From assembly GCF_030656115.1 (NCBI RefSeq), contig NZ_JAUSOO010000044.1, positions 1-64,000 on the forward strand: a stretch of 64,000 bases of DNA, written 5' to 3'. This DNA comes from Hydrogenophaga sp. Its GTDB lineage: Bacteria; Pseudomonadota; Gammaproteobacteria; Burkholderiales; Burkholderiaceae_C. A model generated the notes under the pieces. The model did no database searches. It was given only the letters and a program-made list of their open reading frames with translations, and was not told the origin of the DNA. Below, piece after piece: positions 33,490-39,597 of this stretch. Positions within the stretch are counted from its first letter, which is position 1. Each line of letters begins with the position of its first letter. The position numbers and the translations under genes were made by a program.

Positions 33490-33520
33490 TTGACAGAGGG
33501 TATGCGTGCTAGCTTATTAT
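33490..33520 (+). promoter_or_regulatory. sigma-70-type promoter of the peptide/radical-SAM operon
   Basis: A perfect -35 TTGACA (33490-33495) is followed by TATTAT (33515-33520, 19 bp spacing) or TTATTA with 18 bp. It lies about 200 bp before the small peptide gene and is the strongest promoter-like sequence ahead of the cluster. Confidence 0.5.
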
Positions 33521-33720
33521 CTCAACCAGCGTCGTTACTTCTCTTCATGCCTTGGTTCGGGTCCGGGGCGGCGGTTTGTCCGTTGAGTCCGTACCTTCGT
33601 TGAACGTGACCCGGCCTTCATTGACCACATCTGCGTTATCTCGCATGCCTTGCTCCAGGCAGCCTCTCCGACCCGAAGAGGCGTTGTTGGTCCATGTCGG
33701 CTCTTATCTGGAGCAAACGC

Positions 33721-33924
33721 ATGAGCAAATCCCTACTCAAAGCCGCGTTGGACAATCGATCCAACCAACTGAACCCGCAACACCCCGTGTACTACCTTAG
33801 TCGGGGACTAGATACGGAGCAGGCAATGCGGGAATCACGCGCACTGATCTCCCCCGTACCAGCGCAGCCAGTGAACAGTCTGCCTGTGAATGCAAAACGT
33901 TCTGCCAAGCCAACTTCCGAATAA
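33721..33924 (+). CDS. 67-residue peptide, candidate precursor for the downstream enzymes
   Basis: ATG 33721 has GGAG nine bases upstream and opens a 67-residue peptide. Its first half is distinctive: LLKAALDNRSNQLNP, then a Pro-Val-Tyr-Tyr and LSRGLDTEQ. The second half is rich in Pro, Ser, Val and Lys. It has no signal peptide or membrane segment. The following genes encode a glycosyltransferase/radical-SAM fusion, a methyltransferase, an epimerase and a phosphatase, all peptide- or sugar-modification types. A small ordered peptide at the head of such an operon is what a RiPP-like precursor would look like. A gap of 75 bp with a small hairpin (ACGACA/TGTCGT) separates it from the epimerase gene. 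Coding status rests on context and motif only. Confidence 0.55.
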   Translation: MSKSLLKAALDNRSNQLNPQHPVYYLSRGLDTEQAMRESRALISPVPAQPVNSLPVNAKRSAKPTSE

Positions 33925-33999
33925 GACACGACACAGCCCTGTCGTTCCGCCACCGTGGCTTTTGAGGCCTAGGTGGCTCACGTCTCATGGAGCAAAAAA

Positions 34000-34926
34000 T
34001 TGACTCAACGAATACTGATCACTGGATCAGAAGGACTGATTGGTCGTGTCGTTCGAGAGGACTTGACCACACACGGCTATCAGGTCAACGGCCTTGACCT
34101 GCGGGGCTTAGATGATGAAAGAGGCGATGTTTGTAACGCTGCTCAAGTGGTTGACGCTATTGCCTCTTGCGATGGCGTGTTGCACCTCGCAGCCGTATCG
34201 CGTGTTGTTTGGGGGGAGCTTGATCCGGAGCATTGCTGGGCGACCAACGTTGGTGGTCTTTGCAATGTTCTTGAGGCAGCGCAGGCGAATGTGCGCATGC
34301 CTTGGGTCATCTTTGCAAGCAGTAGGGAGGTCTACGGTCAGCCAAAGTTACTCCCGGCAACTGAGGACACGCCATTGGCCCCTGTCAATGTCTACGCGCG
34401 ATCCAAAGTAGAAGGGGAGCGTCTGGTGGAACTGGCACGCCAACGCGGCCTACAGACGGCAGTGATTCGACTGTCAAACGTCTTTGGACGATCTCACGAT
34501 CATGCTGACCGCGTTGTCCCGGCATTCGCGAGGGCTGCAGTTACAGGTCAGCCTTTGCGCGTGGATGGCCCGAGCCATACCTTTGACTTCACTCATGTGG
34601 AAGACGTCAGTCGTGGCATCGTTTCGTTGATTCAGCGTTTGACTGCCGGTGAGGACTGTTCACGCCCGATTCACTTTGTCTCCGGCCAGGCAACCACGTT
34701 AGGAGAACTGGCTGCGTTGGCTATCAAAATTGCGAGCAGCTCATCATCCGTTGTAACTGCACTTCCGCGCAACTTCGATGTGGCCAGATTTTATGGAACG
34801 CATCAACGCGCCACGACCACTTTGAACTGGACCCCCAGGGTGCCACTGCGAAATGGGCTGGCCACGCTCATTGCAGATTTTCAACTTGAGGCGTCCTTGC
34901 CCACCTCCACCTTGAGTGCCGCATGA
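34000..34926 (+). CDS. NAD-dependent epimerase/dehydratase (extended SDR)
   Basis: The product is about 308 residues from TTG 34000, which has GGAG seven bases upstream; a GTG nine codons earlier is possible. QRILITGSEGLIGRVV is the glycine-rich NAD motif, and the catalytic YxxxK is in VNVYARSKVEGERL (about residues 137-141), with Ser in FASSREVYG. Extended SDRs of this kind epimerise, dehydrate or reduce nucleotide-activated sugars. The gene overlaps the glycosyltransferase fusion by 4 bp (ATGA). It probably makes or edits the sugar donor used by that glycosyltransferase. Base composition is clearly more AT-rich than in mnmA or the LigB-type dioxygenase gene that flank the cluster. Confidence 0.82.
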   Translation: MTQRILITGSEGLIGRVVREDLTTHGYQVNGLDLRGLDDERGDVCNAAQVVDAIASCDGVLHLAAVSRVVWGELDPEHCWATNVGGLCNVLEAAQANVRMPWVIFASSREVYGQPKLLPATEDTPLAPVNVYARSKVEGERLVELARQRGLQTAVIRLSNVFGRSHDHADRVVPAFARAAVTGQPLRVDGPSHTFDFTHVEDVSRGIVSLIQRLTAGEDCSRPIHFVSGQATTLGELAALAIKIASSSSSVVTALPRNFDVARFYGTHQRATTTLNWTPRVPLRNGLATLIADFQLEASLPTSTLSAA

Positions 34927-37274
34927 AAATTTTGAAAGTCATCCATGGCTACCCGATGCGATACAACGCAGGTTCGGAGGTCTACAGCCAAACGCTTTGC
35001 CACGGGCTAGCAGATCGACATGAGGTTCACGTCTTCACCCGAGAAGAAGACTCCTTCGCTCCCGACTACCGTCTCAGAACGGAACTGGATCCTGACGATG
35101 CGCGGATCACTCTGCATCTGGTGAACAACCCACGCAATAAGGATCGCTACCGCGTTACGGGAATAGATCAGCGCTTTGCCGAACTGCTGGATCGCCTCCA
35201 GCCTGACATCGTTCATGTCGGCCATCTCAACCACTTGTCAACATCCTTGTTGAGTGAAGCGGCCAGCCGAGAGATACCCATCGTGTACACACTTCACGAC
35301 TACTGGGTCATGTGTCCACGTGGTCAGTTCATGCAGACCTTCCCGGAGGATCCAGCCAATCTTTGGGCTGCCTGTGATGGTCAGGATGACAGGAAGTGTG
35401 CCGAGCGCTGTTACTCACGCTATTTCAGTGGCGCTCCCGATGAACATGCTCTTGACATCTCTTTCTGGACCCAATGGGTGGGCCGGCGAATGAGTCACAT
35501 GCGGGAGATGACAGAGTTGGTCGATGTGTTTGTGGCGCCAGCTAGGTACCTCCTTGAGCGATACCGGAATGACTTTGGCCTGCCCGCCGCGAAATTGAAA
35601 TACCTGGACTACGGCTTTGACCAAAAGCGATCTGAGGGTCGTTCACGGGCTGCGGGCGAGCCAGTGACCTTCGGCTACATCGGCACTCATATCCCCGCTA
35701 AAGGCATACACGATTTGATCCGTGCCTTTGGTCAACTGCGCGGCGATGCGGTCTTGCGGATCTGGGGGCGTCATCGTGGGCAGGACACGGAGTCGCTTAA
35801 AGCGCTGGCTCGGGACCTTCCCGTAAACCTTGTGGATCGTGTCGAATGGATGCCTGAATATCGAAATCAGGACATTGTTTGCGACGTCTTTGACAAGGTG
35901 GATGCGATAGTCGTGCCGTCGATCTGGGTTGAAAACTCACCCTTGGTAATTCATGAGGCTCAGCAAGCCAGAGTGCCGGTCATCACAGCTAACGCGGGCG
36001 GGATGAGCGAGTATGTTGAACACGAGGTCAATGGCCTTCTGTTCGAGCATCGATCACACCATGCACTTGCGCAGCAAATGCAACGATTGATAGATGAACC
36101 CGGTTTGCTGGTGCGTCTGGGGCAACGTGGCTATCTCTTTAGCGAGAGTGGGCAGATCCCTCCCATTGATGAACACGTTCGAGACATCGAGGCCTTGTAC
36201 GAGTCACTGATTCGGCGTCGAGATCGCACATATATTCCGTCTACAGACGGTCCTTGGCGCATCACGTTTGACACCAATCCTGACACCTGCAACTTGAACT
36301 GCGTCATGTGCGAGGAGCACTCGCCTCACAGCACCTTGCAAGAACAGCGCAAGGCTCGTGGTCAGGCTCGTCGAATCATGCCTGTTCGCTTGATCGAGCA
36401 GGTGATTGAGCAGGCAGTACCTCATGGCTTGCGCGAAATCATTCCCTCCACCATGGGCGAGCCGCTGGTCTACGATGATTTCGATCGCATCCTAGAGTTG
36501 TGCGAACAGCATGGCATCAAGTTGAATCTCACGACCAACGGTACGTTCCCAAGGCTGGGTGCCAAGGCATGGGCCGAGCGCATCGTGCCAGTGACATCTG
36601 ATGTCAAGATCTCCTGGAATGGAGCGACCCAGGCGACCCAGGAAGCACTCATGATTGGCACACGCTGGGACGCGATGCTTCGGAACGTCCGAGACTTCAT
36701 CGCCGTTCGGGATGCTCACGCAGTTGGTGGTGGTCATCGTTGTCGAGTGACTTTTCAGATGACTTTTCTGGAGTCCAACGTTGGCGAGTTGGCTGACATC
36801 GTGCGGCTTGCCGTCGAACTGGGTGTGGATCGCCTGAAGGGCCATCACCTTTGGGCGCATTTCAAGCAGATTGAGAGCATGTCGATGCGTCGCAGTCCTG
36901 CGTCGATTCAACGGTGGAATAAGGCAGTGTTGGAGGCTCGTCGGGCAGTCTCTGAGCGGATGTTGCCCAATGGCAAGCCGCTCTTGCTAGAGAACATCTT
37001 TCTTCTGGACGAGGGCGCTTTGACCGATCTCGCACCAGAGGGGGGCTGCCCCTTCCTAGGGCAAGAGTCCTGGGTGAGTGCCGAGGGGCGCTTTGACCCT
37101 TGTTGCGCCCCAGACGCTCAGCGCCGTTCTTTGGGCGAGTTCGGCAATCTCCATGAGCAAGGCATCATCGAGATTTGGAAGGGCAAGGGCTATCAAGACT
37201 TGAAATCGACCTATAGGAACAAGACGCTCTGCTTAGGCTGCAATATGCGCAAGCCTGTGGAAGGCACCTCATGA
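34923..37274 (+). CDS. glycosyltransferase (GT4) / radical SAM-SPASM fusion protein
   Basis: This 783-residue protein is built from two enzymes. Residues 1 to about 425 are a GT-B glycosyltransferase of family 4: N-terminal MKILKVIHGYPMRYNAGSEVY, central FGYIGTHIPAKGIHDLIRAF, and the donor-binding ENSPLVIHEAQQARVPVITA followed by GGMSEYV. Residues about 440-780 are a radical SAM domain with the CxxxCxxC cluster motif at Cys456, Cys460 and Cys463 (CNLNCVMC) and a SPASM-like C-terminal cysteine set (GGCPFLG near 709, FDPCCAPD, CLGC). SPASM enzymes typically modify ribosomal peptides. A glycosyltransferase fused to one is unusual. It overlaps both neighbours by 4 bp. Sugar donor and acceptor are unknown; a peptide acceptor is inferred from the SPASM domain and the upstream peptide. 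Confidence 0.85.
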   Translation: MKILKVIHGYPMRYNAGSEVYSQTLCHGLADRHEVHVFTREEDSFAPDYRLRTELDPDDARITLHLVNNPRNKDRYRVTGIDQRFAELLDRLQPDIVHVGHLNHLSTSLLSEAASREIPIVYTLHDYWVMCPRGQFMQTFPEDPANLWAACDGQDDRKCAERCYSRYFSGAPDEHALDISFWTQWVGRRMSHMREMTELVDVFVAPARYLLERYRNDFGLPAAKLKYLDYGFDQKRSEGRSRAAGEPVTFGYIGTHIPAKGIHDLIRAFGQLRGDAVLRIWGRHRGQDTESLKALARDLPVNLVDRVEWMPEYRNQDIVCDVFDKVDAIVVPSIWVENSPLVIHEAQQARVPVITANAGGMSEYVEHEVNGLLFEHRSHHALAQQMQRLIDEPGLLVRLGQRGYLFSESGQIPPIDEHVRDIEALYESLIRRRDRTYIPSTDGPWRITFDTNPDTCNLNCVMCEEHSPHSTLQEQRKARGQARRIMPVRLIEQVIEQAVPHGLREIIPSTMGEPLVYDDFDRILELCEQHGIKLNLTTNGTFPRLGAKAWAERIVPVTSDVKISWNGATQATQEALMIGTRWDAMLRNVRDFIAVRDAHAVGGGHRCRVTFQMTFLESNVGELADIVRLAVELGVDRLKGHHLWAHFKQIESMSMRRSPASIQRWNKAVLEARRAVSERMLPNGKPLLLENIFLLDEGALTDLAPEGGCPFLGQESWVSAEGRFDPCCAPDAQRRSLGEFGNLHEQGIIEIWKGKGYQDLKSTYRNKTLCLGCNMRKPVEGTS

Positions 37275-38941
37275 ACTGGGCAGATATGGTCGTATCACCT
37301 AGCGGCACCCACCACCTTTGGAGCAATACGCCTGCGTACTCAGAGCGCTTTGATGAGGTTCTGAAGTTTCACTCACCAGGTTTGGCTCCGGTGCGCTGCG
37401 CTGGTCTCGCGTGGCATATCCAACCTGATGGCACACCGGCCTATGTCAGCCGGTTCAAGCGGACGTTCGGCTTCTATGAAGGATTAGCCGCAGTCGTTAC
37501 GAAGGACAGGGCTTTTCACATCACGCCCGATGGAGAGGCCGCCTATTCCGAGCGATACAACTGGTGTGGCAATTTTCAAGAGGGCCGTTGTCCTGTACGT
37601 ACCTCTGATGGCACCTACCTGCACATTACCCAAGATGGTCGGCCAGCCTACACCGAGCACTGGAGGTATGTCGGCGACTTCCGCGATGGCGTTGCAGTCG
37701 TTCAGTCTGATGATGGCCTCTCCACTCACATCAACATGCATGGCGTGAAGCTCCATGACGTTTGGTTCGAAGATCTGGATGTCTTTCACAAAGGATTTGC
37801 GAGAGCCAAAGATTCACGCGGCTGGATGCACATCAATACAAATGGGCGATCGAACTATGAGCGGCGTTTTGCCTCCGTCGAGCCCTTTTACAACGGACAG
37901 TCGCGTGTCGAAACGCTTTGCAGTGGCTTGGAGGTCATTGATGAGCTGGGTTTTACCGTAGCGGTTCTGCGTGCACCAAGTCGGTCTGAATTCGCGGCGT
38001 TGTCAGCTGACATGGTCGGCTTCTGGCGCACTCAAACCATTGCTTCTGCAGTGGAGCTAGGTGTGTTTGATGTCTTGCCAACCACTACAACCGCCATTGT
38101 CCAAAAGTTGCAGGTGCACTCCGATCGTTTGGTTCGCTTGCTTTGTGCCTTGAGTGAGTTGAACCTTATTCAGGAGGTTTCGGGGGAGTGGCGAGCAACC
38201 GAGCGTGGAGCATATTTGCGCCAAGATCATCCTATGTCTTTGTCGCACGCAGCCCTAGAGTTTGGCCATCACTTTCCAGTGATGTGGATGCAGCTGCCAA
38301 CAGCTTTGAGAAGGGAGGGGGAGTGGTCACCTCCCGACATCTTCGGAATGCTGGCGTCAGACCCCAAGAGAGGTGCCCTGCATCATCAGATGCTTCGCAG
38401 TTATGCACGTCATGACTATTCCTGCGTTCCCGCTGCTTTGAGTTTGGTCGGCACTGAGCGTGTGATTGACGCCGGTGGCGGGTTGGGTGAGTTGGCCGAT
38501 GTGTTGCTGAAACGGTATCCTTCTCTTCATTTGACCGTACTGGACCGTCCAGAAGTCATTCAGCAAGCCAGTACGGCACACCCACGGCGCGAGCAGATCA
38601 CGTGGCTCTCAGGAGACTTTTTTGGTGACTGGGGCATCTCCGCCGATGTCGTGGTGATGGCACGCATCCTTCACGACTGGGATGATCCGGACGCGCTTCG
38701 CATCTTGGTCCGTGCTCGCGACAGTCTGCCAAGAGGTGGACGCTTGCATATTGTCGAAATGGTTTTGCCCGATGGCGATCCCAGCGGTGCCCTTTGCGAT
38801 CTTCATTTACTGATGGTCACGGGTGGGCGCGAGCGTACCTTGGCCCAGTACGCGGACTTGTTGACTCGTAGCGGCTTCAACCTCAAGGAGGCGAAACGCT
38901 TGAACGCTTTGTCCTCGATTTTGATCGGTGAAGCGACGTGA
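37271..38941 (+). CDS. WG-repeat / O-methyltransferase fusion protein
   Basis: The 556-residue protein has an N-terminal array (about residues 10-230) of roughly six WG-like repeats of 37-40 residues, with consensus H-I-x-x-DG-x-x-AY-x-x-R/W plus F-x-x-G-x-A-x-V. The C-terminal half is a plant-COMT-type O-methyltransferase: a dimerisation helix region (about 240-340), VIDAGGGLGELADVLL (SAM site), LTVLDRPEVI, and ARILHDWDDPDALRIL with the catalytic His. WG repeats are protein-binding modules, so this may dock a peptide and methylate it. It overlaps the glycosyltransferase/radical SAM gene and the phosphatase gene by 4 bp each. Methylation of a hydroxyl on a modified peptide is my inference. 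Confidence 0.82.
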   Translation: MNWADMVVSPSGTHHLWSNTPAYSERFDEVLKFHSPGLAPVRCAGLAWHIQPDGTPAYVSRFKRTFGFYEGLAAVVTKDRAFHITPDGEAAYSERYNWCGNFQEGRCPVRTSDGTYLHITQDGRPAYTEHWRYVGDFRDGVAVVQSDDGLSTHINMHGVKLHDVWFEDLDVFHKGFARAKDSRGWMHINTNGRSNYERRFASVEPFYNGQSRVETLCSGLEVIDELGFTVAVLRAPSRSEFAALSADMVGFWRTQTIASAVELGVFDVLPTTTTAIVQKLQVHSDRLVRLLCALSELNLIQEVSGEWRATERGAYLRQDHPMSLSHAALEFGHHFPVMWMQLPTALRREGEWSPPDIFGMLASDPKRGALHHQMLRSYARHDYSCVPAALSLVGTERVIDAGGGLGELADVLLKRYPSLHLTVLDRPEVIQQASTAHPRREQITWLSGDFFGDWGISADVVVMARILHDWDDPDALRILVRARDSLPRGGRLHIVEMVLPDGDPSGALCDLHLLMVTGGRERTLAQYADLLTRSGFNLKEAKRLNALSSILIGEAT

Positions 38942-39597
38942 CTGTGTTGATGAACTCAGCTGTGAAGCGCACCTTGCGCTTGATTCAGTCTGTCCCGGAA
39001 GGCTCGCCTGTTGCGCTGCTCGTCAGGCACTCCGCTCGGGATGACATTCCGGATGGAGGCACGGGCATTGAGTTGCCACTCAATGATCTGGGCATTCGCC
39101 TGTGCCAAGAGTTAGGTCGTGAGTTAGTGGGGCGGGTTAGGTCTGCTCGGTCAAGCCCCGTTCTCCGGTGTGTGCAGACCGCCAAGTTGTTGGGTCAAGC
39201 TGCGGATGCGGATGGAGAAGTCATATTGGACAAGCGCCTCGGCGCACCTGGTGCCTATGTTCTGGACGAACAAGTGGCTTGGGGCAACTGGTTGGCGCAT
39301 GGTAATGAAGGTGTGATCCAGCATCTGGTTTCAGGAACAGGGGCGTTGCCCGGCATGGCTTATCCAGCAGAGGCCGCGAATGACCTCATTGAGCATTTGC
39401 TTGAGTGCGCTGGGGTTGAACCTGGCCTGCATCTGTTCATTTCACATGATTCGATCATGACGCCCACAGTGGCTCGCGCGTTTGGCCAAGACATGCCCAA
39501 AAGTCACTGGCCGGAGTACATGGACGCTTCTGCATTCTGGCGACAACAGAATGGTTGGGTGGTGGCCTATCGAGATATCGTCCAAGGTGTTTTGTAG
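38938..39597 (+). CDS. histidine phosphatase family protein
   Basis: This 219-residue protein has the phosphatase signature LLVRHSARDDI near residue 30 (catalytic RHS instead of RHG), the second catalytic His in HLFISHDSIM near residue 165 and VLRCVQTAKLL for the phosphate pocket. Histidine phosphatases hydrolyse phosphomonoesters, from sugar phosphates to proteins. GTG 38938 overlaps the methyltransferase stop (GTGA), making it the last gene of the operon. It could dephosphorylate a sugar or peptide intermediate. RHS replacing RHG occurs in some family branches, so loss of activity is not implied. Confidence 0.8.
   Translation: MTVLMNSAVKRTLRLIQSVPEGSPVALLVRHSARDDIPDGGTGIELPLNDLGIRLCQELGRELVGRVRSARSSPVLRCVQTAKLLGQAADADGEVILDKRLGAPGAYVLDEQVAWGNWLAHGNEGVIQHLVSGTGALPGMAYPAEAANDLIEHLLECAGVEPGLHLFISHDSIMTPTVARAFGQDMPKSHWPEYMDASAFWRQQNGWVVAYRDIVQGVL

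Follow-up and report, generated by a model that had tools for sequence, protein, structure and literature searches.

The DNA analyzed here is a 64,000-nucleotide stretch of a Hydrogenophaga sp. contig (NZ_JAUSOO010000044.1, positions 1 to 64,000), referred to below as the window. On its forward strand, a small peptide gene is followed by four enzyme genes, and a structured leader RNA with a pseudoknot, a candidate translational switch, occupies positions 33535 to 33716 in front of the peptide gene. We consider the chances about even that the five genes form a biosynthetic operon acquired by horizontal transfer, and that their 5′ leader represents a new class of structured, translation-controlling RNA. 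Most likely, the leader RNA is a new translational switch for a pathway to a glycosylated, methylated product, which is perhaps built on the peptide. An earlier note on this DNA had proposed an undescribed peptide-modification cluster and had overlooked the structured RNA between the promoter and the peptide gene. This RNA is the strongest feature of the locus and its best-supported new element.

Predicted Structure and Distribution of the Leader RNA

One genome per species was scanned with the radical S-adenosylmethionine (SAM) domain of the cluster. A total of 191 loci were confirmed, and the best 80 (L027-L106) were kept. Since only two short patterns were used in the scan, the number 191 is a lower bound. 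When the upstream DNA of the loci was compared, a conserved non-coding block was seen upstream of the peptide. On this comparative evidence, the leader is a structured RNA of about 160-190 nt between the promoter and the peptide gene.

RNAalifold analysis of 23 sequences gave 24 base pairs, 19 of which showed at least one compensatory change. The completed structure, which includes the pseudoknot, was counted on an alignment made from sequence only (A9, 21 sequences). It possesses 45 pairs in 7 helices, with 91.1% of the cells paired and a covariation score of 0.405, and 34 of the 45 pairs were changed on both sides. None of 500 shuffles reached any of the five measures, and slid controls were 34-43% paired. 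The structure had been completed by hand on L029, one of the 21 sequences. This gives it an advantage over the slid versions, but the covariation is not accounted for in this way.

A covariance model of the RNA (R1) was searched in the window and 83 loci. At E < 1e-3, matches were detected in 27 places, namely the window and 26 of the 80 loci. The window, which belongs to the training set, matched at 33545-33704 (131 bits, E 6.6e-28); six of the 27 matches are outside the training set (E 3.8e-10 to 2.8e-4). All 27 precede the first gene and have the same orientation as the enzymes; in L077, 464 nt separate the match from the short-chain dehydrogenase/reductase (SDR) gene. The leader RNA was present in all of the 25 peptide-bearing places. 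Two weak matches were not counted: one just upstream of the SDR gene in L068 (1484-1648; 18.4 bits, E 0.09), possibly a diverged copy of the leader, and one elsewhere in the L062 locus (E 0.59).

Among 147 relatives, R1 was found in the own genome and in none of the 146 others, under stricter filters and with limited candidates scored. In the cluster genomes, also with limited candidates scored, 12 matches were found in 11 of 38, all at copies of the cluster. A second, decayed copy of the leader RNA and the cluster was observed in Paludibacterium (L153; G504:C1:2850-2996).

Against Rfam (4227 families), the window leader gave no match up to E 10, and no family reached its gathering threshold in 7 loci. 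When eight loci were searched at E ≤ 1, the sole overlap with the leader was mir-Ro6-3 in L119 (34.7 bits against a gathering threshold of 79, E 0.029). Since no family reached its threshold and this overlap, in one of eight loci, was taken as chance, a known RNA family was rejected.

A putative promoter is located at 33490-33520. It consists of TTGACA (33490-33495) and TATTAT (33515-33520), separated by a 19-nt spacer. The earlier note described a strong sigma-70-like promoter. The perfect TTGACA is in agreement with that description, but the spacing is not, and a scan allowing 16-18 nt did not accept this pair of boxes. TTGAC is present at -49 to -58 from the start of the RNA model in 17 of the 27 places, compared with 5% of random stretches from the same loci.

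Predicted Pairing of the Leader RNA with the Shine-Dalgarno Sequence

The 3′ domain of the RNA contains a loop with CUCC, which is complementary to the GGAG Shine-Dalgarno (SD) sequence just ahead of the start codon of the first gene. In the window, nine bases can pair between the anti-SD loop TTGCTCCAG (33650-33658) and the SD stretch CTGGAGCAA of the peptide gene (33708-33716), which was read in the sequence. The two segments covary across the loci. The first gene behind the leader is usually that of the motif-bearing peptide. In L034, the leader RNA is directly before the SDR/epimerase gene, and there the loop UCCUC faces GAGGA.

The anti-SD/SD pairs of the same locus scored 356, as against 310.8 (sd 11.0) after swapping among loci that are related to one another, with segments cut by hand; none of 20000 swaps reached the score of the own pairs. 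Furthermore, the base preceding CUCC and the one following GGAG can pair in all of the 25 loci that were scored out of 27 (G-C 16, U-A 5, G-U 3 and A-U 1; L029 and L034 were not scorable). These sequence comparisons indicate that the leader RNA would mask the SD sequence as an expression platform, with L029, L031 and L056 as ambiguous cases.

In the 5′ domain, GGGUC can pair with either of two GACCC segments, in 20 and 18 of 21 sequences, respectively. Only the second partner remains in L049, with the matching change AGGUC/GACCU. The two competing partners suggest two alternative states, and would be compatible with a switch.

The Peptide beside the Cluster

The first gene (33721-33924) starts with ATG behind GGAG (33710-33713) and encodes a peptide of 67 residues with the DNRSNQLNPQHPVYYLSRG motif. 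A peptide profile made from 12 seeds (11 loci and the window) matched in 22 of the 80 loci, which comprise the 11 seed loci and 11 further ones. Each match shares the strand of the enzymes and precedes the first enzyme gene by no more than about 0.7 kb, and the profile revealed no second place for the motif in these 22 loci at E ≤ 1. Two shortened relatives (L074 and L081) were added by eye.

The adjacency was counted in the 69 loci with at least 700 nt of upstream sequence. The peptide is just upstream of the enzymes in 24 of them, so that the motif does occur beside the same enzyme set in other genomes, as the earlier note had suggested looking for. Since the peptide frame is conserved in other genomes, that observation is more than chance. 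The peptide accompanies 15 of the 19 loci with SDR, full WG-methyltransferase and phosphatase genes, compared with 9 of the 50 others (raw counts, kinship included). Two copies of the motif are present in four peptides (L027, L029, L047 and L066). The motif residues Q, N, R and G do not vary among 19 aligned members, and L078, outside the alignment, has A for G. In 22 peptides, the differences at codon positions 1, 2 and 3 numbered 1635, 1414 and 2864. This excess at the third position indicates that the peptide is a selected protein.

In the tree of the radical SAM domain, all 25 peptide-bearing rows are inside one branch of 50 rows (support 93/77), and the peptide label changes 15 times, compared with 22.0 times in shuffles. 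The 15 changes indicate that the peptide comes and goes, and its limitation to one branch indicates that it is not obligatory. No peptide was found in any row of Chloroflexota, Cyanobacteria, Planctomycetota or Arsenophonus. Except for the relatives in L074 and L081, no conserved alternative precursor was seen among the small upstream frames of the peptide-less clusters, which were read by eye. No match above the cut-off was obtained in Pfam or NCBIfam for the peptide or its stand-alone relatives, in a search that did not extend to PHROGs and PADLOC. The idea that the peptide has no connection with the cluster and merely strayed from a stand-alone family came from the Arsenophonus clusters without peptide and from plasmid copies standing alone. 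It was overturned by the 80-locus set.

The Peptide Motif away from the Cluster

The whole genomes of 49 cluster carriers were searched for the motif, and 41 of these were taken as having no adjacent peptide. Some of the 41 have little upstream sequence, and one of them, L081, has the shortened relative beside its cluster, which the genome search did not report. A motif match elsewhere was found in 4 of the 41 genomes, and no match in the other 37. The four are two Myxococcus double-motif proteins, one stand-alone motif frame (L123) and L127, where the match is inside a long frame and is probably chance.

The motif DNRxNQxNPxxxxYxxSRG also occurs in stand-alone proteins on plasmids and chromosomes, as the N-terminal tag of larger frames (L108:841-1581 and L109:997-1587, both on the minus strand), and at the extreme C-terminus of frames in viral contigs (L137:5001-5069 and L139:5001-5066). 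Judging from these sequences, it is a portable short motif without a family entry. In 23 loci with the motif only or with a weak match, the sole R1 match up to E 1 is at chance level (10.5 bits, E 0.65).

Small stand-alone proteins in L110, L111, L125 and L126 contain two related half-motifs (NDDRSDSMNPNN... DNHANQLNPNN and NDQRANSKNPNN... DNRSNQMNPN). On the Pseudomonas plasmids L021 and L133, a stand-alone peptide has a helicase/AAA ATPase gene on one side and, on the other, a convergent gene of 398 amino acids, for which no Pfam match was obtained in L021 or L133. The neighbors in the two plasmids are related (45% and 23% identity).

The Enzyme Genes

Each enzyme domain of the four enzyme genes is supported by Pfam. 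The first enzyme gene (33973-34926) encodes an extended SDR of the NAD-dependent epimerase/dehydratase family (PF01370). The second (34923-37274) encodes a family-4 glycosyltransferase (GT4) fused to a radical SAM/SPASM domain, an assignment supported also by the homologous loci and by the predicted fold of the radical SAM part. In the third (37271-38941), a WG-repeat domain (residues ~1-237) is fused to an O-methyltransferase (PF00891), as seen with Pfam and, for the methyltransferase part, structure comparison. The fourth (38938-39597) encodes a protein of the histidine phosphatase superfamily, branch 1 (PF00300), and many of the 80 loci have a homologue 3′ of their WG gene. All are on the forward strand. 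The five open reading frames (ORFs) are as described in the earlier note, and the 4-bp overlaps were confirmed at the last three junctions (SDR/GT-radical SAM, GT-radical SAM/WG-methyltransferase and WG-methyltransferase/phosphatase).

The GT4 part showed PF00534 (Glycos_transf_1) and PF13439 (Glyco_transf_4) above the cut-off, and its ENSPLVIHE stretch presumably corresponds to the EX7E motif. In the radical SAM/SPASM part, PF04055 and PF13186 (C-terminal auxiliary-cluster domain) were above the cut-off. Over 33 sequences of the radical SAM domain, the mean column identity is 74%, and the CX3CX2C cysteines (C17, C21 and C24) are invariant in all 33.

The structure of the radical SAM domain was predicted with a pLDDT of 89.1. 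Its closest fold is SuiB (Z 23.2, rmsd 3.6, 288 aligned residues), followed by BlsE (Z 22.0), DesII (21.9), SkfB (21.8), CteB (21.7; structure 5why, which we take to be CteB) and BtrN (17.4). SuiB is also the sole solved relative by sequence at E ≤ 0.01 (24 bits). Since the Z values from SuiB to CteB (21.7-23.2) are too close, the fold does not separate peptide from sugar substrates, and it was dropped as a decider between them. The methyltransferase part is matched by LaPhzM (Z 36.4), DtpM (36.0), ASMT (34.2) and MmcR (33.8). In the structure search with the whole WG/methyltransferase protein, the match list was filled by the methyltransferase part. No PqqD-like recognition element for a ribosomally synthesized and post-translationally modified peptide (RiPP) was matched in the five proteins with Pfam, which remote elements of this kind can escape. 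No protease or transporter was found among the five genes with Pfam.

Spread and Variants of the Enzyme Set

The kept loci, the best 80 of 191, show 58-74% identity. They belong to Pseudomonadota, Myxococcota, Planctomycetota, Chloroflexota, Cyanobacteria, Nitrospinota, Verrucomicrobiota and others. Three plasmids of Arsenophonus, louse-fly symbionts (L023, L024 and L025), hold the SDR, GT, radical SAM and WG-methyltransferase genes; no phosphatase match was obtained in them. On these plasmids the cluster is beside panBCE. In Arsenophonus, and mostly also in the Chloroflexota loci, GT and radical SAM are encoded by two frames, and the break between them shows where the fusion point lies. The methyltransferase part of Arsenophonus has lost the glycine-rich stretch (VIDAGGGLGE in the window), and its WG part is well kept. 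The WG domain is present with the methyltransferase part unmatched in 20 of the 69 loci with enough upstream sequence.

Variant loci were also sampled. L067 has a carbamoyltransferase gene and a WG-class II aldolase fusion, L031 has a second radical SAM gene, and Arsenophonus L025 has PhyH- and serine hydroxymethyltransferase (SHMT)-like genes. These extra genes fit with tailoring of a sugar-containing small molecule. Extended clusters, in which another radical SAM match follows 4-5 kb downstream, were observed in L031, L052, L062, L065, L067, L068, L069 and L100. By clustering, several extended clusters have a carbamoyltransferase-like gene; only L067 was scanned.

A phage origin was rejected, since no GT-radical SAM relative was confirmed in viral contigs, where only peptide-motif matches were found. 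In the open-licence PubMed Central literature, no described pathway for the enzyme set was found. This agrees with the earlier designation as a candidate undescribed cluster, for which absence from that literature is weak evidence.

Insertion of the Cluster in the Genome

Judging from their sequences, the genes flanking the cluster are presumably mnmA and a dioxygenase gene. The gap between the two is 7058 bp in the window, compared with 155-163 bp in three of the 19 other genomes searched (G005, G006 and G007). In G008 and G002, the gap measures 1.5 and 4.2 kb, respectively. In the remaining genomes, the two genes are apart or one of them was not found. The GC content of the cluster is about 0.55, as against 0.60-0.70 in the flanks, in line with the earlier description of an AT-richer segment. 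At E ≤ 1e-60, the GT-radical SAM fusion was found in 1 of 67 genomes of the genus, which is the own genome. Judging from gene order, the five-gene block is an insertion between the mnmA and dioxygenase genes.

Proposed Function and Alternative Explanations

When the anti-SD/SD pairing forms, translation of the first gene would be low and, through the 4-bp overlaps, that of the operon as well. The leader structure would be opened by a signal, for which a metabolite that the pathway produces or requires is the simplest candidate. The leader RNA is possibly a riboswitch. The SDR and the GT4 may supply and attach a sugar, and the radical SAM domain may oxidize or rearrange the sugar or its acceptor. 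The methyltransferase would O-methylate, and the phosphatase would remove a phosphate; the order of these steps is equally conjectural. In the peptide-bearing branch, the peptide would most likely be the acceptor or carrier for the enzyme steps. A role as substrate or carrier in this branch is our leading interpretation, only somewhat ahead of an accessory role.

The earlier note proposed a RiPP-type pathway and made this depend on whether the peptide is conserved beside homologous clusters. The peptide frame is indeed conserved beside homologous enzymes in one branch, but it is absent in the others. It was not found beside 45 of the 69 loci with sufficient upstream sequence, and the motif exists without the enzymes. 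A RiPP pathway with the peptide as its substrate is thus no more than a possibility.

Several observations, including this absence beside 45 loci, weigh against a leader-controlled pathway with the peptide as acceptor. The leader RNA was detected at only 26 of the 80 loci, and L034 and L077 have it without the motif peptide. The fusion was found in none of the 8 genomes with cluster-free motif matches (E ≤ 1e-30; at least two of these matches are weak). The SD pairing test swapped related loci and used hand-cut segments. The top-scoring pairing is not CUCC:GGAG in L029 (loop GGUCC), nor, by best stretch, in L031 and L056. In single-sequence folding, the window leader is only moderately stable (z -2.0), and its minimum free energy structure differs from the consensus structure.

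As the main alternative, the peptide may be an accessory or regulatory protein of one branch, and the enzymes may make a glycan, a nucleoside-like compound or another small molecule without a peptide, with the leader still controlling translation. We regard this as a serious possibility, although on balance improbable. It would explain why the peptide is absent beside so many clusters, with no match anywhere in 37 of the 41 genomes, and why the motif appears as stand-alone proteins and as N- or C-terminal tags, with the fusion in none of the 8 genomes with such matches. The carbamoyltransferase, class II aldolase, PhyH or SHMT-like genes in some variant loci point in the same direction. So does the radical SAM fold, which is near BlsE and DesII about as much as SkfB and CteB; BlsE and DesII act on sugar substrates. 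However, the four peptides with two motif copies resemble multi-core precursors, which carry repeated cores. In 25 of the 27 RNA-bearing places, moreover, the peptide gene comes first behind the RNA, and the nearest solved radical SAM protein by both sequence and fold, with a small Z lead, is SuiB, a RiPP enzyme.

A more specific version of the peptide-acceptor proposal is rather unlikely in our view. According to this version, the leader belongs to a new riboswitch class that responds to a phylum-crossing natural product or to one of its precursors. The product is assembled on the peptide by the GT/radical SAM fusion, and the motif serves as a portable tag, either acceptor or recognition element, which bacteria also employ outside the pathway.

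It is less probable still that the leader is a protein target and not a metabolite riboswitch. Ribosomal-protein operons are autoregulated by leader binding, and the peptide or another cluster protein might similarly bind the leader and repress its own translation. The co-occurrence of the RNA with the peptide in all 25 peptide-bearing places, and a loop that can mask the SD sequence, would be expected in this case. However, the RNA persists in L034 and L077, where the motif peptide is missing, and motif peptides elsewhere are without the RNA (nothing better than E 0.65 in the 23 loci). The last explanation takes the small ORF for an incidental frame in a conserved non-coding region, or for no more than an attenuator-type leader peptide, with no function as a protein. 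It could account for a short frame without family match behind a structured leader, but it is already disfavored and very improbable: the differences concentrate at third codon positions, homologous peptides exist as genes in their own right and as tags on larger frames, and both motif and frame are conserved over phyla.

Taken together, the leader-controlled pathway that we propose combines an enzyme set spread over phyla (myxobacteria, planctomycetes, Chloroflexota, marine and insect symbionts), a peptide motif without a family and a strongly covarying leader RNA outside Rfam, the translational platform of which is clear. Should the RNA prove to be a riboswitch, the identity of its ligand would give a clue to what the pathway makes. 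If the peptide is the acceptor, the cluster would represent a new class of peptide modification that combines radical chemistry and glycosylation.

Comparison with Known Systems

RiPP clusters with SPASM maturases of the SuiB, SkfB and CteB type also have a small conserved gene adjoining a SPASM-type radical SAM enzyme, and SuiB is the closest solved sequence and fold. Unlike these clusters, the radical SAM domain of the window is fused to a GT4, and a structured RNA is in front. Moreover, there is no match to a RiPP recognition element or PqqD-like domain in Pfam, no protease or transporter, and no peptide beside most of the clusters.

Mycofactocin-type pathways have a peptide, a SPASM enzyme, a glycosyltransferase and an SDR, and the window cluster has a similar list of enzyme types. 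However, the window radical SAM protein scored 30.8 bits against the maturase model TIGR03962, the cut-off of which is 265, and the window peptide has no family match above the cut-off.

BlsE, DesII and BtrN belong to sugar and nucleoside antibiotic pathways. The fold match to BlsE and DesII is about equal to that of the peptide enzymes, and the context of SDR, GT, phosphatase and methyltransferase is similar. In contrast, the domain in the window is fused to a GT4 with a WG partner, and the sequence identity is low (13-18%).

As for translational riboswitches and other SD-sequestering leaders, the window-type leader differs in that it reaches no Rfam family threshold. It resembles them in its position as a 5′ leader, its covarying helices, its pseudoknot and the loop complementary to the SD sequence.

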